Positions 1 through 27,203 of a stretch of 64,000 bases of DNA are shown here, piece by piece. The notes beneath the pieces are model-generated. The model had not been told where the DNA came from and made no database searches. It saw nothing but the letters and a program-made list of their open reading frames with translations. Source of the stretch: Bradyrhizobium sp. CCGB12. Lineage in GTDB: Bacteria > Pseudomonadota > Alphaproteobacteria > Rhizobiales > Xanthobacteraceae. The DNA is taken from the NCBI RefSeq assembly GCF_024199845.1, contig NZ_JANADO010000001.1:1178001-1242000 (forward strand), in the 5' to 3' direction. Position 1 is the stretch's first letter, and each line of letters opens with the position of its first letter. Position numbers and translations under genes: made by a program.

Positions 1-1473
1 AAGAATTTGATAGCTCTGCCATCAGATGTACAAGCAGCTCGCGAGCTAGGATCAAGTCCTCATTCAGGAGGTCATCTCGGGAACTATAGCAAGATTTTTT
101 GCAAGTTTCTTGGTCAACTCCAGTCGCACCCGTCCTTCGCCGCTGCTCAGGAAGGCGATACCGCTGCCATTGATCAACTTGATGCCGAGATGAGCAGCTT
201 TCTCGCCGCTGCGAAGTATGCTCTCGCGAAGGGACACTTGCTCACCAATACACCCTCGGGAATGACACAGGAGGACGCGAACAGGCGTATCGAAGACTGG
301 TACGCAAATTGGCGAACGTATGCCAAAGAGAATCGAGACAACATTCAGCAGATGCTGGATACCGTCGACCAACTCCATGGCGCTAACCAATGGGAAGCCG
401 CTCTGCGCGGTCCTATCCTCCTTCCGGACGACACTCTCAGTCTCGCGGACAGGATAGCGATCTTGGCGCGATACCACTCCAGTTCGCATATTTCTCAGCA
501 CTTCGCGCCTGTTGGACCTGTTCCCGATCTGCCTGGCCTCGTTGCCCCCGTTATCGATACGCGTCTGCCCGGCTTTACTCCGTCTCTACCTGGAGATTTG
601 GATCGACCGGAGGGATTCACGCCAAGTCCGCTTCAAACCTATGGACCGCCCGGCTTCCCGGTGGTCGATCCGCGAGGCTTTGGGCAATTACCTCCAACAA
701 GGGCTGCTCCATCGGAGCCGCAAGTCTTGCAATTCCATTCCGAGACAAGCCAACCGCTGATGTTCACTGATGGCTCACCTGTGTTAGGGCCGCCGATACC
801 TCCTGATGGAGGCTCCGCCTTGTTGATGGGAGCGGGTGTGCTTGGTGCGGGCGCCCTGATGATACCTGGATTGCAGGGGCTCGGTGCTAGGTTACTCGCA
901 GGTGCGACTGCGGCCGCTCTCACCCGACCTGCTTTTTCAGCGAGTGTCTCAGGTGATGCCAACGTTGCAGATGGAAGTGTTTTCTCCAAAGGGGCGGCTC
1001 CTTACAATCCGTTCGACTTCGGCCGTCCGGCACACGACGCGCAGGCGGTTCAGGCCAGCCCCTTTGCTGATCGCTTCGGACGTTGGACCGACATCTCGGC
1101 AGGCACTCCGCTCGCGCAGCCCTCGAACGTACAGGAAGTGCTCGACACTCCTACCGCGGAAGCTGTCGCGCCCGAAGATGTGCGGCGTCTCACCCGTGTT
1201 AACGCGTCGAATGCGGGCAGCGTGTTCTCGTCTGGCACTGCGCCGCTCCCATATCTGCCCTCTACCGAATTCAATGAGCGGTTTGGCCGTTGGACCGTGC
1301 CGACCGCTGACGGCCGGCAACCGCAGACGAGCAAGCCGATAGGTATATTCGCGGATGAGCCAAGCTACCTCATTCCACCGCCGATCTTCGGAGTGGATGG
1401 TCCGGGCAATCCGCACAACGACGCTGAGGAGTGGTTCTCGCGCTGGATACGGCCACTGCTTCGCCCGGAGTGA
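1..1473 (+). CDS. Hypothetical protein with C-terminal FGRWT repeats (possibly 5'-partial)
   Basis: I do not recognise this family. The reading frame is open to the left edge, and the first in-frame start inside the window is TTG at 7 (488 aa), with no visible ribosome site, so the true start may lie outside. Seen: a charged, helical N-terminal half; a Pro-rich middle; a Gly/Ala/Leu-rich hydrophobic stretch at about residues 269-306 that could enter a membrane; then two related C-terminal units, GSVFSKGAAP...FADRFGRWT (about 323-361) and GSVFSSGTAP...FNERFGRWT (about 404-430), with a degenerate third near the end (WFSRW). Codon use looks less GC-rich than in the catabolic genes, which hints at acquired DNA. 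It is followed by sRNA cassette copy A. Confidence 0.6.
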   Translation, partial: KNLIALPSDVQAARELGSSPHSGGHLGNYSKIFCKFLGQLQSHPSFAAAQEGDTAAIDQLDAEMSSFLAAAKYALAKGHLLTNTPSGMTQEDANRRIEDWYANWRTYAKENRDNIQQMLDTVDQLHGANQWEAALRGPILLPDDTLSLADRIAILARYHSSSHISQHFAPVGPVPDLPGLVAPVIDTRLPGFTPSLPGDLDRPEGFTPSPLQTYGPPGFPVVDPRGFGQLPPTRAAPSEPQVLQFHSETSQPLMFTDGSPVLGPPIPPDGGSALLMGAGVLGAGALMIPGLQGLGARLLAGATAAALTRPAFSASVSGDANVADGSVFSKGAAPYNPFDFGRPAHDAQAVQASPFADRFGRWTDISAGTPLAQPSNVQEVLDTPTAEAVAPEDVRRLTRVNASNAGSVFSSGTAPLPYLPSTEFNERFGRWTVPTADGRQPQTSKPIGIFADEPSYLIPPPIFGVDGPGNPHNDAEEWFSRWIRPLLRPE

Positions 1474-1514: not shown

Positions 1515-1600
1515 TTTGACACGTCGGGCAAAAACACTGGCAGAATGGCATCATCGAAATAGTTCAGACAAGGCCCGCGGGATACCGCGGGCCTTGTGTT
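1515..1600 (+). ncRNA. Putative promoter-sRNA-terminator cassette, copy A
   Basis: TTGACA at 1516-1521 is followed 19 nt later by CAGAAT at 1541-1546, then the conserved GGCATCATCGAAA. A perfect 13-bp hairpin follows (arms 1568-1580 and 1585-1597, loop GATA) ending in GTGTTT. Transcription from this promoter would give an RNA of about 50 nt. The spacer has one extra A compared with the other copies. The hairpin may also terminate the convergent monooxygenase gene. Promoter and transcript are inferred from sequence only. Confidence 0.45.
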
Positions 1601-1625
1601 TAGACGGCAGCGAGACCTTCATGCG

Positions 1626-3092
1626 CTACGTCGCTGCCGCTGCTCCGAACCATCTCGCCAACGCTTCCGCAAGTCCGCGCTGGCCTTCGTCTCCCACCCA
1701 GGCCACATGGCCGTCGGGCCGCACGAGCACTGCGTCTGGCGCTGCGACCGGTCCAAGGGCTGGAAGCTCCCATGGGCCGTCGTAGTCGGCATTGATGACA
1801 CCGATGCGATCGGCCCAGGGCGTGATGTCAATGCCACCGGGCTTGCCGAAACCAAGCAGCACGCCGCGCGCGCCGTGCAGCAGCGTGAACAATCTCAGCT
1901 TCTGTCCTTCGACCGTCAGATCGAGGTCGGGCATGCGGCGGCCGAGCAGCGCGTGTCCCTCGCCAAGATCATAGTGAATGTCGAGACCGCTCATCATCGC
2001 GCCAAAACGCTGGCGCGGCTGGTCCATGGCGAGCAGTTCGGCGACGGCATCACGCGCGGCCTTGAGGCCGTCGTCGCCGCGGCGGAGCAGGGCGATCTGC
2101 GCCATGGCGTTTTGCAGCACGCGCGCCGCGACGGGATGGCGCTCGGCGTGGTAGGTGTCGAGCAGGCTGTCGGGCGACATGCGATTGACCACCTGCGCGA
2201 GCTTCCAGCCGAGATTGACGGCATCCTGCACGCCGGTGTTGAGGCCTTGCCCGCCAACGGAGTGATGGATATGCGCGGCATCGCCCGCGAGCAGCACGCG
2301 TCCTTTGCGATAAGACACCGCCTGCCGTGCCGCATCGGTGAAGCGGGAGATCCAGGCGGGATTCTCGAGACCGAAGTCGGTGCCGTAGACCGCGACAAGG
2401 GCCTCGCTGAGATCGCGCAATGTGGGCTCGCCGGTGCGATCGAGCGTCGCTTCCGTCACGACGACCAGCACGCGTCCGCTTTCGGTCTTGCTGAGGCCGT
2501 GAAAGCCGAGCGCGTCGTGACGTAGGCCAAAGGCGGGGGCATCGCGCATCTCGACCTCGGCCATGAGGTTGCTGAGCGTCGGATCGAAACCGGCGAAGTC
2601 GATGCCAACAGCCTTGCGCACCAGGCTGCGACCGCCGTCGCAGCCGACGAGATAGTTTGCGCGCAGCGTCTCGCCGCCGGACAGCACGACATCGATGCCG
2701 GTCTCATCCTGCGCAAAACCCGTCACCTCGAAGCCTCGATAGACCGGCACTGCGAGCTCTTCGACCCAGCCGGCGAGGATGCGTTCGATGTGGCTCTGCC
2801 GGAGCACGAGGCCGTAAGCGTGCCTTGTGGGGAGGTCGCTGATGTCGAGCCGCGTCCAGGCGAAGCCGGCGAGCTGGGTGATCTGGCCCTCGCGCAGAAA
2901 GCGGTCTGCGACGCCACGCTGATCGAGGATCTCGATGGTGCGCGCGTGCAGTCCACCGGCGCGCGTGCCGATCAGGTCTTGGTTGCTGCGGCGCTCGACC
3001 ACCGCGACGTCGACATTCGCGAGAGCGAGCTCAGCGGCCAGCATCAGCCCGGTCGGGCCGCCGCCGGCAATGATGACGGCATGATCGGCCAT
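1626..3092 (-). CDS. FAD-dependent aromatic monooxygenase (PHBH fold, class A)
   Basis: A single-component flavoprotein hydroxylase of 488 aa, expected to use NAD(P)H and O2 on an aromatic or polyketide-like substrate in the cytoplasm. The Rossmann motif GGGPTG is at residues 10-15, the second FAD/NAD(P)H motif CDGGRS at 151-156, and the GD motif AGDAAHIHHSVGGQG near 280. The last ~110 residues resemble the thioredoxin-like tail found in the RdmE/pentachlorophenol hydroxylase group. I chose the ATG at 3092 because AAGGA lies about 8 nt upstream; the frame also extends to 3161, but that extension looks non-coding. It is flanked by sRNA cassettes A and B and has no obvious pathway partner, so the substrate is unknown. 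Confidence 0.85.
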   Translation of the reverse strand: MADHAVIIAGGGPTGLMLAAELALANVDVAVVERRSNQDLIGTRAGGLHARTIEILDQRGVADRFLREGQITQLAGFAWTRLDISDLPTRHAYGLVLRQSHIERILAGWVEELAVPVYRGFEVTGFAQDETGIDVVLSGGETLRANYLVGCDGGRSLVRKAVGIDFAGFDPTLSNLMAEVEMRDAPAFGLRHDALGFHGLSKTESGRVLVVVTEATLDRTGEPTLRDLSEALVAVYGTDFGLENPAWISRFTDAARQAVSYRKGRVLLAGDAAHIHHSVGGQGLNTGVQDAVNLGWKLAQVVNRMSPDSLLDTYHAERHPVAARVLQNAMAQIALLRRGDDGLKAARDAVAELLAMDQPRQRFGAMMSGLDIHYDLGEGHALLGRRMPDLDLTVEGQKLRLFTLLHGARGVLLGFGKPGGIDITPWADRIGVINADYDGPWELPALGPVAAPDAVLVRPDGHVAWVGDEGQRGLAEALARWFGAAAAT

Positions 3093-3283
3093 CGCTGCGG
3101 TCCTTGCGCCGGCTGGCTGTGCCTGCTGGCGTAAACGGGACTTCGGAAGCAATACAGGCATGTCGTGACCCCTCGGTGTGTGGCTGGGCCACGGGTTCTA
3201 CGGCAGGGAAGGGGACTTGAAGCAAGCCCCTTGCGCACCACATATCTAGCTGGGAGGAAGACCTCTTCTCTTGTCCGGCCCTG

Positions 3284-3375
3284 TTTGACACGTCGGGCAA
3301 AACACTGGCACAATGGCATCATCGAAAGAGTTTGGTTCAACCCGCGCGGGAGCAATCCGCTGCGGATTTTCTTTT
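3284..3375 (+). ncRNA. Putative promoter-sRNA-terminator cassette, copy B
   Basis: TTGACA at 3285-3290, an 18-nt spacer, CACAAT at 3309-3314, then conserved GGCATCATCGAAAGAGTTTGG and a GC-rich hairpin (CCGCGCGGG pairing with TCCGC-T-GCGG, one bulged T) followed by ATTTTCTTTT. It lies between the divergent start of the flavin monooxygenase and the 3' end of the response-regulator gene. Predicted transcript about 55 nt. Inferred from sequence only. Confidence 0.45.
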
Positions 3376-3389
3376 GGGCCCGACGTTCA

Positions 3390-3731
3390 TCAAATGCCGG
3401 TGGTCCGCTGCATGACGTCGGCGAGCTCGTCGAACGAGAACGGCTTCCGGATCATCGGCAGGCCGCCGCGCCGGGGCTCGCGACCTGACAATTGCAGCAT
3501 CTTCAGCTCCGGACGGATGCGCTTGGCGCGCTCCGCCAGCTCATGCCCATCCATGCCGGGCATGTTGATATCCGTGATGAGGATGGAAATGTCTCGGTTC
3601 TGCCCGAGCCGGTCGAGTGCGTCCGCGCCGCTCTGGGCGCTGATCACCTGGTAGCCGAGATCTTCCAGCATGCCCACGATCACGTCGAGGACGGCGGGAT
3701 CGTCGTCAACAACCAGGACAGTGTGACTCAT
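3390..3731 (-). CDS. Single-domain response regulator (CheY-like receiver)
   Basis: A 113-aa protein that is a receiver domain and nothing else, so it probably acts by protein contact or as a phosphate shuttle rather than by binding DNA. Seen: acidic pocket D9-D10-D11, phospho-acceptor D54 in LITDINMPGMDG, switch residue S82 (QLSGRE) and K96 in IRKPF, so all residues needed for phosphorylation are present. The start is the ATG at 3731 (MSHTVLVVDDD), preceded by AGAAGGAA; a longer reading to 3836 would add 35 residues encoded partly by a decayed sRNA cassette and is unlikely. No histidine kinase is nearby, so the partner is unknown. Confidence 0.88.
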   Translation of the reverse strand: MSHTVLVVDDDPAVLDVIVGMLEDLGYQVISAQSGADALDRLGQNRDISILITDINMPGMDGHELAERAKRIRPELKMLQLSGREPRRGGLPMIRKPFSFDELADVMQRTTGI

Positions 3732-3814
3732 CGCACGAACGTTCCTTCTGACGAAGGAATCAACGCGCCGCTCGCCGGGTAAGTTCCGGCAGGGCCGGCC
3801 GCATGCACGGATGT

Positions 3815-3859
3815 TTGACAGGTCGGGCTCGAGCATCGCCGGAACGGCATCATCGAAAC
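3815..3859 (+). repeat. Decayed cassette copy F
   Basis: TTGACA (3816-3821) plus GGTCGGGC and GGCATCATCGAAA match the other cassettes. The middle has diverged and is one nucleotide longer, the -10 equivalent reads about CGGAAC, and no clear U-tailed hairpin follows. It sits just upstream of the response-regulator start, antisense to its leader. Most likely a degenerate copy. Confidence 0.4.
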
Positions 3860-3880
3860 GCGCGCCGCCCGCCGGTTCGT

Positions 3881-4099
3881 CTAATCGTCTTTTGAGAGAT
3901 CGCCGGGTTTCGTGGGAAGGTCGAGGGTGCCGCCATCGCCGTGCACGAGGTCGCGGTCTCTGTCCTCGGTCTCGCCGGCGTCTTGGATGATCGCCTCTTG
4001 CGTGTCGCGCGCCTTGTCGATGCGCGGCTTGTTATCACTGCGCGGCTTGCCTCCCGGCAGGTTTCGCGATGCCTCTTGTGACGTCGTCTTGAGTGTCAT
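3881..4099 (-). CDS. Small charged hypothetical protein (72 aa)
   Basis: Not recognised. From the ATG at 4099, which has an AGGAGG site ten bases upstream, the frame encodes 72 residues rich in Lys, Arg, Asp and Glu (for example DRDRDLVHGDGG) with no hydrophobic segment, so probably a soluble, perhaps disordered cytoplasmic protein. A longer frame to 4168 would begin MFCPTCQTN, but those residues are the antisense translation of sRNA cassette copy C, so that start is rejected. Cassette copies F and C flank the gene. Bradyrhizobium genomes carry many such small stress-type proteins, but I cannot assign a role. Confidence 0.55.
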   Translation of the reverse strand: MTLKTTSQEASRNLPGGKPRSDNKPRIDKARDTQEAIIQDAGETEDRDRDLVHGDGGTLDLPTKPGDLSKDD

Positions 4100-4146
4100 T
4101 GGCCGATCCTCCTGATGGGCTAACTTGCACGCAGCCCGTAAGTTCG

Positions 4147-4240
4147 TTTGACACGTCGGGCAAAACACTGGCAGAATGGCATCATCGAAAGAGGTTTGGT
4201 TCAGCCCGCGCGGAGAATTCTGCGGCGGGCTCCTTCATTT
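4147..4240 (+). ncRNA. Putative promoter-sRNA-terminator cassette, copy C
   Basis: TTGACA 4148-4153, 18-nt spacer, CAGAAT 4172-4177, conserved GGCATCATCGAAAGAGGTTTGGTTCA, then a hairpin whose outer stem is GCCCGC/GCGGGC (4204-4230) and whose inner part AGAATTCT is itself self-complementary, followed by TCCTTCATTTT. It starts about 50 nt from the divergent 72-aa gene. Inferred only. Confidence 0.45.
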
Positions 4241-4250
4241 TCAAGACAGG

Positions 4251-4340
4251 TTTTGACGCGTCGGGCAACACACCGGCATGATGACATCATCGAGACGAGT
4301 TTGGTTCACCCGCGCGGAAACATCCGCCGCGGGTTTTTTT
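4251..4340 (+). ncRNA. Putative promoter-sRNA-terminator cassette, copy D
   Basis: A diverged copy about 10 nt after copy C: TTGACG 4253-4258, 18-nt spacer, CATGAT 4277-4282, then ACATCATCGAGACGAGTTTGG and the strongest terminator of the family (ACCCGCG-CGGA pairing with TCCGCCGCGGGT, then seven T, 4309-4340). The -10 changes leave A2, A5 and T6 intact, as expected if promoter function is kept. Inferred only. Confidence 0.45.
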
Positions 4341-4594
4341 CGTTCTCGATGCCAGAATCGGACGGTGGCCTACGCACAGCGGCCACGCACTTGCTTGATA
4401 CGCGTTCAGGGAGCGCCGATCGGCGTGCCGCCGTCCGAACCATTGCTGGCCGTGCACGCGCGAACGTGCCGGCCCGCGGCGCCGGGCCATTGTCCGCGCC
4501 GCTGCGGTCTCCGGGAACGGAGATAGGGTTCGCGCCCGAAACGATCGCGCCTCATTGCGCGATCTGCCGCGCATTTTCTTCTCAAGGAGAGACG

Positions 4595-4666
4595 ATGACG
4601 CTTTACCTGATATCGCTCGCGCTCACGGGCCTGGTCGCAATCGCGCTGTGGGAGACGTTCTCTTGA
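4595..4666 (+). CDS. Predicted 23-aa single-pass membrane peptide
   Basis: ATG at 4595 is preceded by AAGGAG (spacing about 6 nt) and opens a 23-codon frame, MTLYLISLALTGLVAIALW plus four residues, which is almost entirely one hydrophobic helix. Its TGA overlaps the TTG start of the next gene (TTGA), an arrangement typical of translational coupling. Such peptides are often missed by gene callers. It may be a real small membrane protein or a leader that sets translation of the downstream gene; no family is recognised. Confidence 0.45.
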   Translation: MTLYLISLALTGLVAIALWETFS

Positions 4667-5004
4667 GCGAGGAGGAGAGCGAGCATGAGAGCGCGCCGGT
4701 CCGCTTGCCCGCGACCAGGAAGACGTCGCGGGCGCGGACGTTGACCGAGATCCGCTCGCTGGCACGCAGCCACACCAGGACCGCCATCCGTGTCCTCGTC
4801 GGCATCATGCGAAGCGATGATGCGACGCCGGCAGCGCGCGTCTCGGCGGCCAATGCCATCCTCGACCGCGGCTGGGGCAAGGCCGCGCAGCCGGTCGAGA
4901 ACGGTGAAGACCTGCCGCTGGAATTGGTTCACCGGGTCGAGCGCGTCATCGTGCATCCGAAGGATGGGAGCGATAGTGAAGCCGAGAACGAGGGCTTGAG
5001 CTGA
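4663..5004 (+). CDS. Conserved hypothetical, small-terminase-like helical protein (113 aa)
   Basis: The frame extends upstream to 4555, but the protein-like part begins at TTG 4663, eight nt after GGGAG and overlapping the stop of the 23-aa peptide. The core, LTEIRSLARSHTRTAIRVL through ANAILDRGWGKA, matches a motif I associate with phage-type small terminase or DUF5681-like proteins common in Bradyrhizobium: helices around an 'AA..ILDRG.G' signature. The C-terminal ~35 residues are acidic. Function is not established; no large terminase or other phage gene is visible. Cassette copy E follows directly. Confidence 0.6.
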   Translation: MSEEESEHESAPVRLPATRKTSRARTLTEIRSLARSHTRTAIRVLVGIMRSDDATPAARVSAANAILDRGWGKAAQPVENGEDLPLELVHRVERVIVHPKDGSDSEAENEGLS

Positions 5005-5035
5005 CGGATGTCGATTCGGAATTTTCGATTGGATC

Positions 5036-5123
5036 GTTGACACGTCGGGCAAAACACTGGCAGAATGGCATCGTCAAGATTTAGTTGGTTCAGCCCGCGC
5101 CGTGCAATTGGCCGCGGGTTTTT
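5036..5123 (+). ncRNA. Putative promoter-sRNA-terminator cassette, copy E
   Basis: TTGACA 5037-5042, 18-nt spacer, CAGAAT 5061-5066, GGCATCGTCAAGATTTAGTTGG, then a hairpin (CCCGCGCC pairing with GGC-CGCGGG, one bulge) and TTTTT at about 5119-5123. It may also terminate the convergent 193-aa gene region. Inferred only. Confidence 0.45.
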
Positions 5124-5142
5124 CGTTTCGATGACCCTTCCG

Positions 5143-5724
5143 CTAGTTCTTGGTCTGCTTGCTCGTCCGGCGTTGCGCAGTGTAGGTACGCTGCACCTGG
5201 TCGCTGCAATAGGACAGCTTTCGGCCGTCGCCAGTGAAATGTCCGTCTTTGATGATCCAGAGGATGACGCTCTTGTCGTCGATCTTCTTGAACATCAGAT
5301 TCTCGCGGTCCGGCGTGAGGTCCATATGTTGTACGCTGACGGCCTCCGGTCCCGGCGCTGCCTGCGGTGTGCAGGTCGCGCCGATCCTGACTGTGTCGGG
5401 AAGCTGGACCCGCGTCTTTTCGATCTTGCACGTGTTCGAGGCTGTCGTGATCGACTTTCCGGAGAATGCAACGACCGTGTCGCTTGACTTTGCGCAGCGC
5501 TCGTCGAAATCGGTTCCCGCCGCGTAAACACCATCTCTCGGGTAGGCGTACGCTTCTGCTTTGGCGCTCAGCTCAGGTTCGGCAAGGGCGCGCTGCGTCT
5601 CCAGAGGGCAGTAAGCCGCTCGCCAGGGAGGACCCTTGAGCTTCCCGTTCAGGCTTTTCTGAACGGATATTGCGACCGGTCTGATGGGAGCGGTCTGGCT
5701 CGGTGTCAAGGTCGTGCTGGGCAA
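5143..5724 (-). CDS. Hypothetical Cys-containing protein (193 aa, start uncertain)
   Basis: Not recognised. The frame reads like a real protein: it has five well-spaced cysteines (YCPLE, ERCAKS, NTCKIE, ATCTPQ, SYCSDQ) and a C-terminal domain with alternating beta-type segments (KSVILWIIKDGHF). That suggests an exported, disulfide-bonded protein, yet no signal peptide is present. The only in-frame start near the 5' end is TTG at 5724 with a weak GAGG; the frame stays open about 12 codons further with no start codon. The gene may have lost its signal sequence or begin at a non-canonical codon. It is divergent from the GNAT gene across only about 63 bp. Confidence 0.45.
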   Translation of the reverse strand: MPSTTLTPSQTAPIRPVAISVQKSLNGKLKGPPWRAAYCPLETQRALAEPELSAKAEAYAYPRDGVYAAGTDFDERCAKSSDTVVAFSGKSITTASNTCKIEKTRVQLPDTVRIGATCTPQAAPGPEAVSVQHMDLTPDRENLMFKKIDDKSVILWIIKDGHFTGDGRKLSYCSDQVQRTYTAQRRTSKQTKN

Positions 5725-6459: not shown

Positions 6460-7728
6460 ATGCCCACAAAGCCTCAATTGCCGGAACGTTCGTCGCGGGC
6501 GACGGGAGGGCAAACTGCGCTCGACGGTCTAGTGGTCGTCGATTTTACGCGTGTCGTCGCTGGTCCGGCATGCACACAGACGCTGGCCGATTTCGGCGCG
6601 CAGGTCATCAAGATTGAAAATCCAGACGGCGGCGATGACACGCGCGCCTATGAACACGCTGAAATCGGCGGAGAGAGTGCCGCTTATCTCAGTCTGAACC
6701 GCAACAAGCGTGGCGTTGCGCTCGACCTTACCGTACCCGAGGCCCGCGAGATCGCGCTCGACCTGATCCGCAAGGCGGATGTCGTCGTGGAGAATTTTTC
6801 GAGCGGGGTCATGAGAAAATTCGGCCTCGACTATGAAGCCGTCGCTCCGCTCAATCCGCGGCTGGTCTATTGCTCGATCTCCGCCTACGGACGCACCGGA
6901 CCGTTCGCTTCGCGCCCGGGTTTCGATCCCATCACGCAGGCGGAAAGCGGCTTCATGTCGCTTAACGGGTTTGCCGACGGCCCAGCGGTGCGTACCGGCC
7001 CGCCGATCGTGGACATGGCAACGGGAATGTCTGCCTGCAACGCAATCCTGCTGGCATTACTGGCGCGGGACCGGCTCGGCCGCGGGCAACATGTCGAGGT
7101 TGCCCTGTTCGACATTGCGATGGGGATGACCGGTTTCTACGGCATGGCCTATCTGATCAACGGCGAGAATCCCGGCCGGTTTGGCAATTCACCGAGCGGA
7201 TCCCCTACCGTCGGGGTCTATGAGGCCTCCGATGGGCCGCTCTACATGGCCTGCGCCAACGACCGACTCTATCGCCGGCTGGTCGTCGAGGTCCTGAACC
7301 GGTCCGACCTGATCACGGATCCTCAGTTCGCCACGCGCAAGGCGCGCTCCGAGAACAAGGAGCTCCTGCGGGCAGCCATCGCGGAAGTCTTTGCCGGCGA
7401 TACGCTCGAGAACTGGATGGCGAAGATGAAGCAGGCCAACATCCCGGTCGGCTATCTCCGAACGGTCGAGGAAGGGTTCAATGCGCCCGAGGCCCGCGAG
7501 CGCCATCGCTTGAGCCGGATTCCGCATCGTAAAGCGGAGTGGGTCCCCAACATCGAGCCGGCAATTGCGATGAGTCTGACCGGCGCGATTGATCCTGTTG
7601 CCGCTCCTCTCCTGGGTGAGCATACCGAGGTCGTGCTGCGTGATGTGCTCGGTTATGATCAGCATCGGATTGCGGAGTTCACCAAAAAGGGTGCCTTTGG
7701 GACGGGCAAGGCCTCGACGTCGGCTTGA
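6460..7728 (+). CDS. Class III CoA-transferase (CaiB/BaiF/Frc family)
   Basis: A 422-aa enzyme predicted to move CoA between carboxylic acids through an aspartyl-CoA anhydride. The N-terminal signature GLVVVDFTRVVAGPACTQTLADFGA..KIE is typical, and the catalytic aspartate is expected in GPPIVDMATG at about residue 185. Length fits the family (about 400). ATG at 6460 is preceded by GGGAG. It heads a same-strand group with the two-component monooxygenase, so it probably activates the organic acid that this cluster breaks down. The specific acid is not known; annotations such as formyl-CoA or crotonobetaine transferase would be over-precise. Confidence 0.9.
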   Translation: MPTKPQLPERSSRATGGQTALDGLVVVDFTRVVAGPACTQTLADFGAQVIKIENPDGGDDTRAYEHAEIGGESAAYLSLNRNKRGVALDLTVPEAREIALDLIRKADVVVENFSSGVMRKFGLDYEAVAPLNPRLVYCSISAYGRTGPFASRPGFDPITQAESGFMSLNGFADGPAVRTGPPIVDMATGMSACNAILLALLARDRLGRGQHVEVALFDIAMGMTGFYGMAYLINGENPGRFGNSPSGSPTVGVYEASDGPLYMACANDRLYRRLVVEVLNRSDLITDPQFATRKARSENKELLRAAIAEVFAGDTLENWMAKMKQANIPVGYLRTVEEGFNAPEARERHRLSRIPHRKAEWVPNIEPAIAMSLTGAIDPVAAPLLGEHTEVVLRDVLGYDQHRIAEFTKKGAFGTGKASTSA

Positions 7729-7915
7729 GCCTGAGCGTCGAACGTAATGGGGCAGGGGCCTCGCACGGCTTTCGGACCGCGGCTCCGCGATGCCGGCCCT
7801 CGCAGCGTCGTATCCTTCAAGAAACGAGGCTCATGGTCATAGTACCACCTCGTCCTGCATCGGCTTGATTTGGCGTGGGACCGGCCGCATAAATGTGCCC
7901 AAGCAAGGGATACGA

Positions 7916-9145
7916 ATGGCGCCTGGTCGAGAGCCGAGCATCAGTGGGCCCACCGGACTGGAAACCGGTGAACGCGCCTATGCGGCCATGATCGCGGGGG
8001 CCCGGGCGCTCGTACCACAGCTGCGCGAGCGGGCAGCGCGGACCGAAGAGTTGCGGCACCTTCCGCCGGAAACCGAAAGGGATCTTCACGACGCTGGCCT
8101 GTTCCGGATGCTTCAGCCGAGACGGGTTGGCGGCGCAGAGCTTGACTATGTCGCCCTGATTGACTGCGCCGAGCTGCTCGGATCGGCGGATGCCTCGGTG
8201 GCCTGGAATTTCGCCAACCTGGCAAGCCACCACTGGATGCTGGGCATGTTCGAGCAGAAGACGCAGGATCTGGTCTGGGACCAGGATCCGGACGCGTTGA
8301 TCGCATCCTCGTTCATTTTTCCTGCCGGACGCGCCACGAGAGTAGAAGGGGGATACCGGCTGCATGGTAGCTGGCCCTTTTCCTCGGGCGTCGCCTCCTG
8401 CGAATGGAACATGCTTGCAAGCGTTGTTTATTCCGACGATGAGGCAGACGGCATCGAGTATCGGATCTTTCTGCTGCCGAAAGGCGACTACAAAGTCCTC
8501 GACACCTGGAATGTCGCGGGATTGCGCGGGACGGGCTCTTGCGACGTGGAGGTCAGGGACGTCTTCGTGGCCGACCATATGACGATTGCCGTCGGCGATC
8601 TTGCCGGGGGCCCGACGCCGGGAAGCAAGGTCAATCCGAATCCGCTGTATACACTCCCCGTCTTCTCGCTGTTTCCTTACGTCCTCTCCGGCGTCGCGCT
8701 GGGGAATGCGCAGGCGTGCCTCGACGACTATGCGGAGGTCGCGCGTCATCGCATTTCAACCTACAATCGTGCCAAGCTGAGCGATTTTCAAAGCACGCAG
8801 ATCAAAATCGCGGAGGCCTCGGCGAAGATCGACGCGGCGCGCCTGATCATGCGCTCGGCCTGTCTGGATGCCATGGCGAATGCGCGGCGCGATCATGTGC
8901 CTGACATGGGAACCAAGACCAGATATCGGCGCGATGGTGCCTTTTCGGTGAATCTGTGCACCGAGGCGGTCTCCATGCTATTTGCCGCGAGCGGAGCGCG
9001 CGGCCTGTTCACGACTGGCGTGTTGCAGAGGCAATTCCGCGATGCGCACGCGATAAACTCGCATCTCGCATTCAACTTCGATGCGGCCGGGACCAATTAT
9101 GGACGCGTGGCGCTGGGGCTGCCGTCCGAGAATCTCACGCTGTGA
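7916..9145 (+). CDS. Flavin-dependent monooxygenase, oxygenase component (acyl-CoA dehydrogenase fold)
   Basis: A class D flavoprotein hydroxylase of 409 aa, related to HsaA and the Acinetobacter HpaH-C2 type. It takes reduced flavin from a partner reductase and hydroxylates an aromatic substrate. The acyl-CoA dehydrogenase-like architecture is visible: helical N-terminal domain, beta domain around GGYRLHGSWPFSSGVASCEW, then a helical C-terminal domain (DYAEVARHRISTY). I place the start at ATG 7916 (MAPGREP) with AAGGGA upstream; the frame extends to 7790 but that part is not protein-like. The flavin reductase follows 9 nt downstream, which strongly supports a two-component system. The substrate is unknown. 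Confidence 0.85.
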   Translation: MAPGREPSISGPTGLETGERAYAAMIAGARALVPQLRERAARTEELRHLPPETERDLHDAGLFRMLQPRRVGGAELDYVALIDCAELLGSADASVAWNFANLASHHWMLGMFEQKTQDLVWDQDPDALIASSFIFPAGRATRVEGGYRLHGSWPFSSGVASCEWNMLASVVYSDDEADGIEYRIFLLPKGDYKVLDTWNVAGLRGTGSCDVEVRDVFVADHMTIAVGDLAGGPTPGSKVNPNPLYTLPVFSLFPYVLSGVALGNAQACLDDYAEVARHRISTYNRAKLSDFQSTQIKIAEASAKIDAARLIMRSACLDAMANARRDHVPDMGTKTRYRRDGAFSVNLCTEAVSMLFAASGARGLFTTGVLQRQFRDAHAINSHLAFNFDAAGTNYGRVALGLPSENLTL

Positions 9146-9154
9146 GGCCGGCCG

Positions 9155-9718
9155 ATGAATGATCTGCCGAAGCAGCCGGCCGTTCCCGATCCAGCCAACG
9201 AGCTCGCGAGCGACAGCTCGCCGATCGACCCCCGCGATTTTCGCAATGCGCTCGGCACCTACGCTACGGGCGTGACGATCATCACGGCCGCGGCTGCCGA
9301 CGGCAAGCCCTACGGCCTGACCTGCAACTCGTTCGCGTCGGTCTCGCTGAATCCTCCGCTGGTTCTATGGAGCCTCGTCGTCTATTCCTCGAGTCTGACC
9401 GTGTTCCAGAACGCCAGCCATTTCGCGGTCAACGTTCTCGGCGCTTCCCAGCAGGCGCTTGCGAACAAATTCGCAAAATCGTCCGACGACAAATTCACCG
9501 GTGTCGATTGGACGCCGGGGCTTGGCGGCGCGCCGGTGCTGGCAGACAGCGTCGCCAATTTCCAATGCCGCTCCGTCAATCGCTACTACGGCGGCGACCA
9601 CGTGATCTTTCTCGGCGCGGTCGAAGCTTATACCTACGATGCGAAGGAGCCGCTGCTCTTCGCGCGCGGGGCGTTTGGTCGCTTTCTGGTCGACGATGAG
9701 CGGAAGAAGGCACCGTAA
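9155..9718 (+). CDS. Flavin reductase (HpaC/NTAB-DIM6 family)
   Basis: A 187-aa NAD(P)H:flavin oxidoreductase that supplies reduced FMN or FAD to the oxygenase encoded just upstream. The flavin_Reduct core spans about residues 28-180: FRNALGTYATGVTIIT, GLTCNSFASVSLNPPLVLWSL and the C-terminal FARGAFGRF are all diagnostic. An ~27-residue polar N-terminal extension precedes it. The 9-nt gap to the oxygenase indicates one transcript. The next gene is convergent and begins only 16 nt beyond its stop. Confidence 0.9.
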   Translation: MNDLPKQPAVPDPANELASDSSPIDPRDFRNALGTYATGVTIITAAAADGKPYGLTCNSFASVSLNPPLVLWSLVVYSSSLTVFQNASHFAVNVLGASQQALANKFAKSSDDKFTGVDWTPGLGGAPVLADSVANFQCRSVNRYYGGDHVIFLGAVEAYTYDAKEPLLFARGAFGRFLVDDERKKAP

Positions 9719-24851: not shown

Positions 24852-27203
24852 ATGAAAGTCGCGATCATCGGTGGTGGACCTGCGGGTCTCTACGCTGCGA
24901 TCCTGCTCAAGAAGCAGCGCCCGGGCGCCGAAGTCGCCGTGTATGAGCGCAATCGGGCCGATGATACCTTCGGCTTCGGCGTGGTGTTCTCCGATGCCAC
25001 GCTGGACAATTTCGAGAAGCACGATCTTCCGAGCTACCGCCGCATCACCCAGGAATTCGCCTATTGGGATGACATTGCCGTGCATTTCCGCGGCACGGTG
25101 CATCGGGTCGGCGGCAACGGCTTCTGCGGCTGCTCACGGCAGAAGCTGCTGCTGATCCTCCAGGAGCGTGCGCGCGAGCTGGGCGTCGCCCTGCATTTCG
25201 AAGTGGATATCGACGACGAAGCCCGCTTCGCCGACGCCGACCTCATCCTGCTTGCGGACGGCATCAATAGCCGCTTCCGTGAGAAGTATCTCGATCATTT
25301 CCAGCCCGAGGTCGACGTTCGCTCCAACAAGTTTGCCTGGATGGGCTCGACCAAACCGCTCGATGCCTTCACCTTCATCTTCCAGGAGACCGAGTGGGGG
25401 CCGTTCATTGCCCATGCCTATCAGTATGAGGTCGGGCATTCGACCTGGATCTTCGAGACGGACCCTGAAACCTTCGAGCGGGCCGGGCTGACAGGGCTGG
25501 ACGAGGCTCAGTCCGCCGCGCGGATGGCGGACATCTTCGGCTGGTTCCTCGGCGGGCATCAGCTGCTGACCAACCGCTCGATGTGGCGCAACTTCCCGAT
25601 GATCCGCAGCAAGCGCTGGGTCAAGGACAACATGGTCCTGCTCGGCGACGCCAAGGCGAGCGCGCATTTCTCGATCGGCTCGGGCACCAAGCTCGCGATG
25701 GAGGATGCGATCGCGCTGGCCGACGCGATGGAGAAGGCGCCCAGCGTCAAGGCCGCGCTTGAGGTCTACGAGCACGGCCGCCGCGAGGAGGTCGAGAAGA
25801 CGCAGCACGCCGCCGACGTCTCGCTGGTCTGGTTCGAGCACGTCGACCGCTTCTGGGACTTTGATCCCGTGCAGTTCGCCTTCGGCGTCATGACGCGCTC
25901 GAAGGCGATCACCTATGACAATCTGAAGCTCCGCGCGCCGGATTTCGTGGCGCAGGTGGATAAATCGTTTGCGAGGCAGGTGCGCGGCAACGGCTTCGAT
26001 GTCGACACCGACCGGCCGATGGTGCCGCTGTTCCAGCCTTTCCGTTTGCGCGAGATGGAACTCGCCAATCGTGCCGTGGTGTCGCCGATGTGCATGTATT
26101 CGGCCAAGGAAGGCGTGCCGACCGATTTCCACCTGGTGCATTACGGCTCGCGCGCGATCGGCGGCGCCGGGCTTATCTTCACCGAGATGACCTGCGTCAG
26201 CCGTGACGCCCGGATCACGCCTGGCTGCGCCGGCCTGTGGAATGACGAACAGGAAGCGTCGTGGCATCGCATCGTGGATTTCGTCCACGGCAATTCGGCC
26301 GCGAAGATTTGCTTGCAACTCGGCCATGCCGGCCGCAAGGGCGCGACCAAGCTGATGTGGGATGGGATGGACCGGCCGCTCGATCAGGGCGGCTGGGAGG
26401 TCTTTTCGGCATCGCCGCTGCCCTATTTCCCCGACAGTCAGGTGCCGCGCGAGCTCGATCGCGCCGGCATGAATGCGGTGAGAGACGCGTTCGTTGCGGC
26501 AGCCGAGCGCGGCGAGCGCTGCGACTTCGACATGCTCGAATTGCACTGCGCCCACGGCTATCTGCTCGCCAGCTTCATCTCGCCGCTGACCAACACCCGC
26601 ACGGACGAGTATGGCGGTTCGCTCGCCAACCGTCTGCGTTTCCCGCTCGAGGTCTTCGAGGCGCTGCGATCGGTGTGGCCGTCGCACAAGCCGATGTCGG
26701 TTCGCATTTCTGCGACCGATTGGGCTGAAGGCGGTATCGGCGGCGACGACGCTGTCGCCATCGCGCGTGCGTTCGCCGAGGCCGGTGTCGATCTCGTCGA
26801 CGTCTCGACCGGGCAGACCGTGCGCGATTCGCAGCCGGTCTACGGGCGCATGTTCCAGACGCCGTTCTCCGACCAGGTCCGCAACGAGGCGCGGGTGGCC
26901 ACCATGTGCGTCGGCAACATCACGACGGCGGACCAGGCCAACACCATCCTTGCCGCCGGCCGCGCCGACCTTGTCGCGCTCGGCCGTCCGCATCTGGTTG
27001 ACCCCTTCTTCACCATGAAGGCGGCGGCCTGGTACGGGGCAAATGACGCGTTCTGCCCGCCGCAATATCTGCCCGGAAAAGATCAGATTTTCCGCAACAG
27101 CGTCCGCGATCGGCAGGACCTCGAGGAGCTGAGAATTAAGGCTAAGCCCAAGACCCGGGCCGAGCTCAAGGCGGAGGCGACAAAGCCGCTTGCGGCGGAG
27201 TGA
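24852..27203 (+). CDS. Bifunctional 2-aminobenzoyl-CoA monooxygenase/reductase (salicylyl-CoA 5-hydroxylase/oxidoreductase family)
   Basis: 783 aa, two fused enzymes. Residues about 1-385 are an FAD monooxygenase ([15 protein letters not shown] at the N-terminus, [22 protein letters not shown] near 265). Residues about 390-760 are an Old Yellow Enzyme-type FMN reductase ([69 protein letters not shown]). This fusion is the hallmark of the aerobic anthranilate pathway first studied in Azoarcus, in which 2-aminobenzoyl-CoA is hydroxylated and dearomatised by one protein. The CoA ligase at 31090 and RidA at 32791 fit this. Salicylyl-CoA as substrate cannot be excluded. Expression is predicted to be controlled by operator site 3. 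Confidence 0.9.

Follow-up and report, generated by a model that had tools for sequence, protein, structure and literature searches.

The question raised by this locus is what a series of short repeated units, each resembling a promoter followed closely by a terminator, does between the genes of Bradyrhizobium sp. CCGB12. We analysed a stretch of 64,000 nucleotides (the window; G000:C1:1178001-1242000 of the 9.43-Mb genome), near the left end of which a sequence-only reading had described five intact copies and one decayed copy of a promoter-terminator cassette, interpreted as a multicopy family of small RNAs (sRNAs) or as an RNA-emitting mobile repeat. Comparison of the units with their relatives in other genomes supports selection on the promoter, on a short body and on a hairpin that pairs, and a multicopy family of ~50-nt RNAs is therefore the best reading. 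Specifically, the units most likely encode sibling sRNAs under a common regulator (probability about 0.6).

An array of units in the window and to its left

The five intact units and the decayed one, all on the + strand between 1514 and 5125, were borne out by the profile, the promoter pattern and the promoter scans, and the profile found no further units in the window. A unit has TTGACA, an 18-nt spacer (19 in unit A), a CANAAT-like -10 box, GGCATCATCGAAA, a linker, a GC-rich hairpin and a U-tract. The units are listed here with the first base of TTGAC as their position.

1516-1600, + strand: unit A; -35 box TTGACA at 1516-1521, 19-nt spacer, -10 box CAGAAT at 1541-1546
~1553-1600, + strand: predicted RNA of unit A, with a 13-bp terminator hairpin
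3285-3371, + strand: unit B; TTGACA at 3285, -10 box CACAAT at 3309-3314, predicted RNA ~3321-3371
3815-3891, + strand: unit C, decayed; -35 box TTGACA kept, spacer altered, -10 box lost (CGGAAC), stable hairpin gone
4148-4239, + strand: unit D; TTGACA at 4148, -10 box CAGAAT at 4172-4177, predicted RNA ~4184-4239
4253-4340, + strand: unit E; TTGACG at 4253, -10 box CATGAT at 4277-4282, predicted RNA ~4289-4340
5037-5125, + strand: unit F; TTGACA at 5037, -10 box CAGAAT at 5061-5066, predicted RNA ~5073-5125

The inner stem of unit F is of the GCC/GGC type, whereas most other units have CGG/CCG. Presumed orthologues of the decayed unit C with a good core were found in four loci of other genomes (L040, L041, L053 and L054).

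A 36-base promoter pattern, allowed up to 3 mismatches, matched the window at 4 places (units B, D, E and F) against 0.00 in 100 shuffles; these matches are not produced by chance. Unit A was missed because of one extra A in its spacer, and unit C because it is too diverged. A promoter scan returned 5 sites against 0.4 +/- 0.6, four of which are again B, D, E and F. A terminator scan returned 6 sites against 2.3 +/- 1.4 and is weak by itself, since only three of the sites fall inside units (B, E and F).

The array does not start at 1515: an intact unit lies 3.1 kb further left (L035:16419-16502, that is G000:C1:1176419), and weaker units stand at L035:17598 and 9396 (G000:C1:1177598 and 1169396), also to the left of the window. 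By our own reading of the open reading frames (ORFs), the description of one unit in nearly every gap is correct between the gene that ends at 1473 and the gene with its low end at 5143, except for a possible gap near 4666-4684, between two small + strand ORFs, that has no unit.

Occurrence of the units in Bradyrhizobium

The exact 43-mer from TTGAC to ATCGAAA, hereafter the core, occurs in 35 stretches of the genome collection; of the 35 records, 34 bear the name Bradyrhizobium in their title. The remaining record, L146 (JAUEPE010000001.1), is titled Frankia sp. RB7 and is probably a misnamed genome. A 19-base promoter piece (up to 2 mismatches) was present in 59 of 98 genomes of the genus, and a 41-base core (up to 1 mismatch) in 128 of 265 genomes. 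When 198 genomes of the family were drawn, the core with up to 3 mismatches was found in 10, all among the 11 of this genus, and in none of the 46 other genera.

A covariance model built from 75 units (R1), run on 149 drawn genomes, found each of the 7 that belong to the genus, including three (G199, G216 and G232) in which the core match is absent or appears only at 3 mismatches. Outside the genus it gave 2 weak matches among 142 genomes (E 4.5e-8 and 6.6e-5), under stricter filters with which weak matches can be lost. G199, G216 and G232 carry groups of two or three units in which the core is shifted (AAATCA replacing AAAACA); in G232 the places of the core matches show AAATCA too. Two of the three divergent congeners read (L166 and L167) hold an orthologue of unit E, because one shifted-core unit is then followed by ATCGGACGG; a terminator was recognised there by eye. 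This mark was not seen in the third, L168.

Within the CCGB12 genome, the R1 model sets 7 full units (76-101 bits) clear of all else (48 bits and lower). We then compared this array with 34 congener arrays chosen for clustered matches. At E<1e-3 the 35 arrays gave 210 hits, two of which, 14 nt apart in L081, are probably one unit; every hit (210/210) lies on the strand of its array, and 175 reach 45 bits or more and are referred to as intact. As judged from this comparison, the strand and the position of the units are conserved across arrays.

Promoter core and predicted RNAs

We determined column information along 172 of the 175 intact units, the other 3 carrying no variant of the anchor decamer. 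Information is low upstream, jumps at TTGAC (position 0) and drops after ATCGAAA (position 42). Positions in the spacer are at least as constant as those in the hexamers, with the qualification that the anchor decamer itself fixes positions 6-15 and accounts for part of the invariance there; the varying positions are base 6 of the -35 box and bases 3-5 of the -10 box. The proposal that the -10 box keeps A2, A5 and T6 stands for the five boxes of the window (CAGAAT in A, D and F, CACAAT in B, CATGAT in E) but fails at the fifth base in the family, which is G in about a fifth of the units (CAGAGT in 14 and CATAGT in 13 of 168).

The conserved GGCATCATCGAAA-like segment does exist, but it is mainly promoter, running from the -10 box to about +6 of the presumed start, and not the RNA seed for which it had been taken. 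Most of it is common to dispersed copies of the core (see below), where terminators are no commoner than at random places. On this comparison, the most conserved segment of the units is the putative promoter, spacer included, and not an RNA seed. The body motif GTTTGGTTCA is exact in 33 of 169 units and present within 2 mismatches in 74 (about one in shuffled linkers). Since the 5' end of unit E can pair behind the U-tract, moreover, the 5' end is not uniformly a free seed, and a shared single-stranded 5' seed is not a general feature of the family.

A hairpin with a U-rich tail (the terminator criterion) was detected in 162 of the 175 intact units and at 50 of 490 random places taken in the loci of the dispersed cores, so that about a tenth of the calls can be chance; with a free energy of -10 or lower, the figures were 161/175 and 15/490. 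The predicted RNAs of the 162 units are 44-62 nt long (mean, 52). Compared with its own shuffles, the predicted RNA of unit A folds strongly (z -6.6) and those of D and E moderately (-2.75 and -2.65), and the corresponding stretch of the decayed unit C has no fold better than shuffles (z +1.5). A start codon with an in-frame stop is missing from 157 of the 162 predicted RNAs, and small protein genes were rejected on this ground.

Alignment A1 (75 units from 159 distinct ones, 104 columns) has a 12-pair hairpin in which 93.3% of the cells are paired. It contains 28 two-sided cells against 8.2 +/- 2.2 in shuffles, none of 500 shuffles reaching this value, and 6 two-sided pairs against 3.4; slid versions of the hairpin gave 5-15 cells. 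These covariation figures can be inflated by relatedness of the units. Covariation of the hairpin is thus above both the shuffled and the slid controls. Promoter, body and pairing hairpin together lend support to the idea of short ~50-nt RNAs, without the shared seed that had been attached to it.

Constraint on orthologous units and a proposed mechanism

We defined groups of orthologous units by their neighbours and calculated mean column identities, the 3' side being counted from the end of the U-tract, with the following results.

Unit E group (33): 5' flank 0.27, core 0.91, linker 0.74, hairpin 0.84, 25 nt on the 3' side 0.78
AHH-type gene/monooxygenase group (13): 5' flank 0.48, core 0.91, linker 0.71, hairpin 0.87, 25 nt on the 3' side 0.44
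Monooxygenase/response regulator group (11): 5' flank 0.75, core 0.92, linker 0.82, hairpin 0.79, 25 nt on the 3' side 0.35
Unit F group (6): 5' flank 0.42, core 0.92, linker 0.68, hairpin 0.83, 25 nt on the 3' side 0.65

Units stand out clearly from their 5' flanks in three groups and from their 3' flanks in two. Promoter, linker and hairpin appear to be under constraint, and the units are seemingly preserved by selection. We favour sibling sRNAs because promoter, linker and terminator are all kept in orthologues, at different rates.

An orthologue of unit E is present in 33 of the 35 arrays. This unit has an optional outer helix, in which ATCGARACGA at the 5' end pairs with TCGTYTCGAT located beyond the U-tract. 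The varying pair covaries: among the 27 orthologues, of 34, that were readable by pattern, it is G-C in 18, A-T in 5, G-T in 1 and A-C in 3 (Fisher p 0.004, a value that ignores relatedness). Outer pairing shows a small excess over all 162 units (4.94 vs 4.53), the source of which is unit E only, the other 128 units being at shuffle level (4.29 vs 4.27). Behind unit E (window 4356-4437), the aligned arrays have a conserved stretch with AATCGGACGG, and CCGTCCG at 4431-4437 could pair with it.

We infer RNA production, its start point, a common regulator and action in trans from these comparisons, as follows. Each unit would be a very short transcription unit of a Bradyrhizobium family, with a sigma-70-type promoter (TTGAC, 18-nt spacer, CANAAT) from which transcription may start about 7 nt past the -10 box. 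The polymerase would transcribe a linker of mostly 10-14 nt and stop at the GC-rich hairpin with its U-tract, yielding an RNA of 44-62 nt. The sibling RNAs would be made together, one regulator presumably reading the almost invariant promoter spacer, and would each use the linker, of which each ortholog keeps its own version, to base-pair with targets in trans.

Several observations weigh against this proposal. The promoter is conserved more strongly than the linker, and the linker differs between paralogues. The contrast with the flanks is not clean everywhere: the 3' side of unit E also shows conservation, at 0.78 over the first 25 nt and 0.66 over the 45 that follow, and in one group out of four the 5' flank is itself conserved (0.75). 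Thirteen of the 175 intact units, three unit C orthologues among them, fail the terminator criterion, and the folds of B and F are unexceptional by themselves (z -0.7 and -1.6). In addition, if the genome G308 is that of B. japonicum USDA 110, its array (6718948-6728680) contains none of the mapped 5' ends tabulated for the ten sRNAs BjsR1-BjsR10 (PMC5082802), a study that chose prominent intergenic peaks and claimed no completeness.

The main rival is that the units punctuate the chromosome in cis, promoter and terminator insulating or interfering with the neighbours at gene borders and the RNA being a by-product. The greater conservation of the promoter over the RNA body would fit this, as would the location of the units in gaps, where A and B end 25 and 18 nt before the 3' ends of opposite-strand genes. 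Punctuation would not account for the conservation of linkers within ortholog groups (0.68-0.82), for the covarying outer helix of unit E or for a lone full unit elsewhere, at a conserved place. Nor does it fit the gap between gene families 8 and 10 (from our home-made choice of ORFs), where a unit is present in 5 of 18 arrays, so that presence varies between the same neighbours. We consider punctuation in cis unlikely, if clearly the strongest competitor of the sibling sRNAs.

Dispersed cores and a possible bipartite element

The R1 model recognised 42 places in the CCGB12 genome, namely 8 in the 14-kb array, a full unit at 4171681 and 33 dispersed ones (28-47 bits); a BLAST search of the same genome listed 40 places, with 40 of 61 candidates scored. 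A lone full unit outside the array (L003:1500-1590, L101), with the block described below upstream, is orthologous in CCGB12 and G308; in L003 it lies ahead of a cobalamin riboswitch.

Of 49 dispersed loci (24 from CCGB12 and 25 from G308), 4 have a terminator by the above criterion, compared with 50/490 random places. CCCCATGCACAGTAG lies within 300 bp upstream of the core in 24/24 of the CCGB12 loci and in 43/49 overall. The same core, without terminator, is thus found at some 30 scattered sites, each preceded by an invariant CCCCATGCACAGTAG block. A search for the block as GCGAAAACAACCCCATGCACAGTAG (up to 1 mismatch) gave 68 intergenic matches in CCGB12 (L171-L190 are examples) and 68 in G308, and reversed controls gave none. 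About half of these places then carry the promoter core of the array, in a bipartite arrangement of block, some 60-130 bp, and core; each chromosome has about 30 sites with both halves. At 9 sites orthologous between the two genomes, the block is identical in all and CGTCGGGCAAAACA in 8; both halves are nearly unchanged amid intervening and surrounding DNA that drifts, in intergenic regions diverged to differing extents. Core conservation at these nine sites partly reflects how the loci were chosen, namely by the core; the block is less affected.

The strand of the block switches at one point, which we chose after seeing the block data. Within 2 Mb of it, 28/31 blocks (CCGB12) and 28/29 (G308) point to it, as do 51/68 over the whole chromosome in each genome. 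For the cores by themselves the tendency is the same but weaker (23/34 and 19/26, the G308 count being what remains of 40 matches after dropping 6 in the array and 8 weak ones; a weak one at 991342, adjoining a block, was kept). GC skew, sampled in 20 stretches of 20 kb across G308, is negative in 6/6 at 5.7-8.8 Mb, positive in 6/7 at 0.7-3.0 Mb and mixed (-, +, -) at 0.1-0.62 Mb, which places the G308 origin roughly near the switch at 0.73 Mb. The block thus tends to point to the presumed replication origin. dnaA, at 0.894 Mb (G308) and 6.927 Mb (CCGB12), is about 0.2 and 0.5 Mb from the switch; hemE failed as an origin marker, being about 2 Mb from it in both genomes. Two reports (PMC4842269, PMC5082802) describe both sense and antisense RNAs from the ntrC 3' end. 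We rejected these as instances of the dispersed element, because neither block nor core occurs behind ntrC in G308.

An undescribed regulator or chromosome protein of Bradyrhizobium may recognise the 43-bp core, which would serve both as promoter of the sRNA array and as half of a bipartite GCGAAAACAACCCCATGCACAGTAG element; we put this forward tentatively, as a possibility well short of even odds. A stricter version, in which the core is primarily a protein-binding site (for a regulator or a chromosome-architecture protein) and the array is one use of it, would explain why the spacer AAACA (positions 15-19, outside the anchor octamer) holds 1.5-2.0 bits at the 49 dispersed sites, above the -35 bases A-C-N (1.2, 1.2 and 0.2), why block and CGTCGGGCAAAACA persist at the nine orthologous sites amid diverged surroundings, and why the block is strand-polarised. 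Both locus sets were, however, picked for carrying the core, so that sites that lost it are invisible. Moreover, the promoter geometry is common to the dispersed sites and the array, and in the array a terminator follows at an almost constant distance, something superfluous for a bare binding site. We hold this version to be improbable, and below punctuation in cis.

The accessory island and the question of mobility

The genes around the units, and the right border of the island, are listed below.

7-1473, + strand: gene preceding unit A; remainder of an ORF that starts left of the window, N-terminus matching the AHH nuclease (PF14412)
1626-3161, - strand: gene between A and B; flavin adenine dinucleotide (FAD)-dependent, aromatic-ring hydroxylase-like monooxygenase
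3390-3836, - strand: gene between B and C; response-regulator receiver protein (the listed ORF; the real start is probably further in)
6460-9718, + strand: right island border; CoA-transferase III, acyl-CoA dehydrogenase and flavin reductase genes, conserved

The three right-border families occur in 24, 23 and 21 of the 35 fetched arrays, respectively, and gene families 14 and 5 form the left border. Accessory genes between the borders encode AHH nuclease-like, Imm11 immunity, monooxygenase and response regulator proteins and small proteins of unknown kind. An Imm11 immunity (PF07791) gene outside the window precedes the AHH-nuclease gene (L035:16839-18498 plus window 1-1473); this toxin-immunity-like pair lies inside the array, with a weak unit behind the first gene and unit A behind the second. 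Decayed units occur also in arrays L046 and L047. Since units can be present or absent between the same neighbours and some are decayed, single units have been gained or lost.

A repeat resembling a miniature inverted-repeat transposable element (MITE), carrying promoter and terminator, would match the many copies per genome and the complementary ends of unit E in part of the species. The mobile repeat of the sequence-only reading is nevertheless disfavoured by the 210/210 hits on one strand per array and by orthologous units at fixed places, as with unit E in 33/35 arrays. Terminal inverted repeats exceed shuffle level only in the unit E orthologues (34 units, compared with 4.29 vs 4.27 in the 128 others), on which ground a MITE was rejected; we judge a mobile repeat very improbable. 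Integron-like cassette borders have equally little in their favour: the uniform orientation, the accessory genes between units, blocks reordered in a few arrays (e.g. L038 and L081) and a lower pooled adjacency with a unit between (117/391) than without (383/703), which is confounded by merged families, are set against the attC core GTTRRRY at the unit start in 0/210, stable adjacency of the commonest unit-separated gene pairs (families 10-1 in 14/16, 1-13 in 11/14) and no integrase among 16 neighbouring proteins scanned, and this explanation was rejected.

Meaning of the proposed sibling sRNAs and comparison with known systems

If the units are transcribed, the sibling sRNAs would form a genus-wide family of unusual layout, in the lineage to which the most thoroughly studied symbiont of soybean belongs. 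The promoter core seems to mark out a separate regulon. If the bipartite-element reading is true, this family would be tied to a system marking chromosome direction or gene 3' ends. The dispersed linked element gives a testable lead on a possible directional marking of Bradyrhizobium chromosomes. The exact starts predicted in G308 (minus strand; 6722242, 6721688, 6719912, 6719782 and 6718998) can be compared with existing data, such as the Bradyrhizobium differential RNA sequencing set GSE69059 named in PMC4842269. GAGTTTGGTTCA is the unit sequence named as common probe target, besides hairpin-specific ones.

The SmelA075-SmelA099-SmelC201 sRNAs carry a CU-rich anti-Shine-Dalgarno motif. They resemble the units in being multicopy, from the Rhizobiales and built of hairpin modules, and are thought to block ribosome binding sites (PMC3927594). 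Unlike them, none of the 162 predicted unit RNAs has the Shine-Dalgarno-blocking motif CCTCC. BjsR1-BjsR10 of B. japonicum USDA 110 (PMC5082802) are for the most part Bradyrhizobium-specific, some in 2-4 copies, with RpoD-type promoters in part. Their listed 5' ends lie elsewhere than the array, and 13 loci around listed BjsR positions, a set outside which BjsR8, 10b and 10c fall, contain no unit (best E 0.17), so that identity with them was rejected. The family could still be one of the BjrC68/80/174/1505 sRNAs (Madhugiri 2012). Br-REP1 and Br-REP2 (PMC5082802) are likewise repeated intergenic elements of the same genus. We rejected them, their consensus being absent from the 175 units (best matches with 5/20 and 17/40 mismatches).

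Searches of Rfam 15 gave no match to the units in the window at E<=1 (the single weak match, isrG, falls outside the units at 25085), and only a cobalamin riboswitch and tRNA in 20 loci at gathering score. In the literature, no title or abstract opening was recognised as treating the unit or the element, and a full-text search with sequence strings gave an unrelated match only.

LhrC, OmrA/OmrB, Qrr and PrrF are sibling, or multicopy, sRNAs. The sequence of the units has features of such families: related intergenic units with their own promoter and terminator (162/175), and compensatory changes. In both cases a genome has several short RNA genes that are related to one another and end in intrinsic terminators, here as a prediction from sequence. 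Unlike the known siblings, the units are arranged as a unidirectional array through an accessory island, with one or two in most gaps, and their putative promoter is more invariant than the RNA that it would express.

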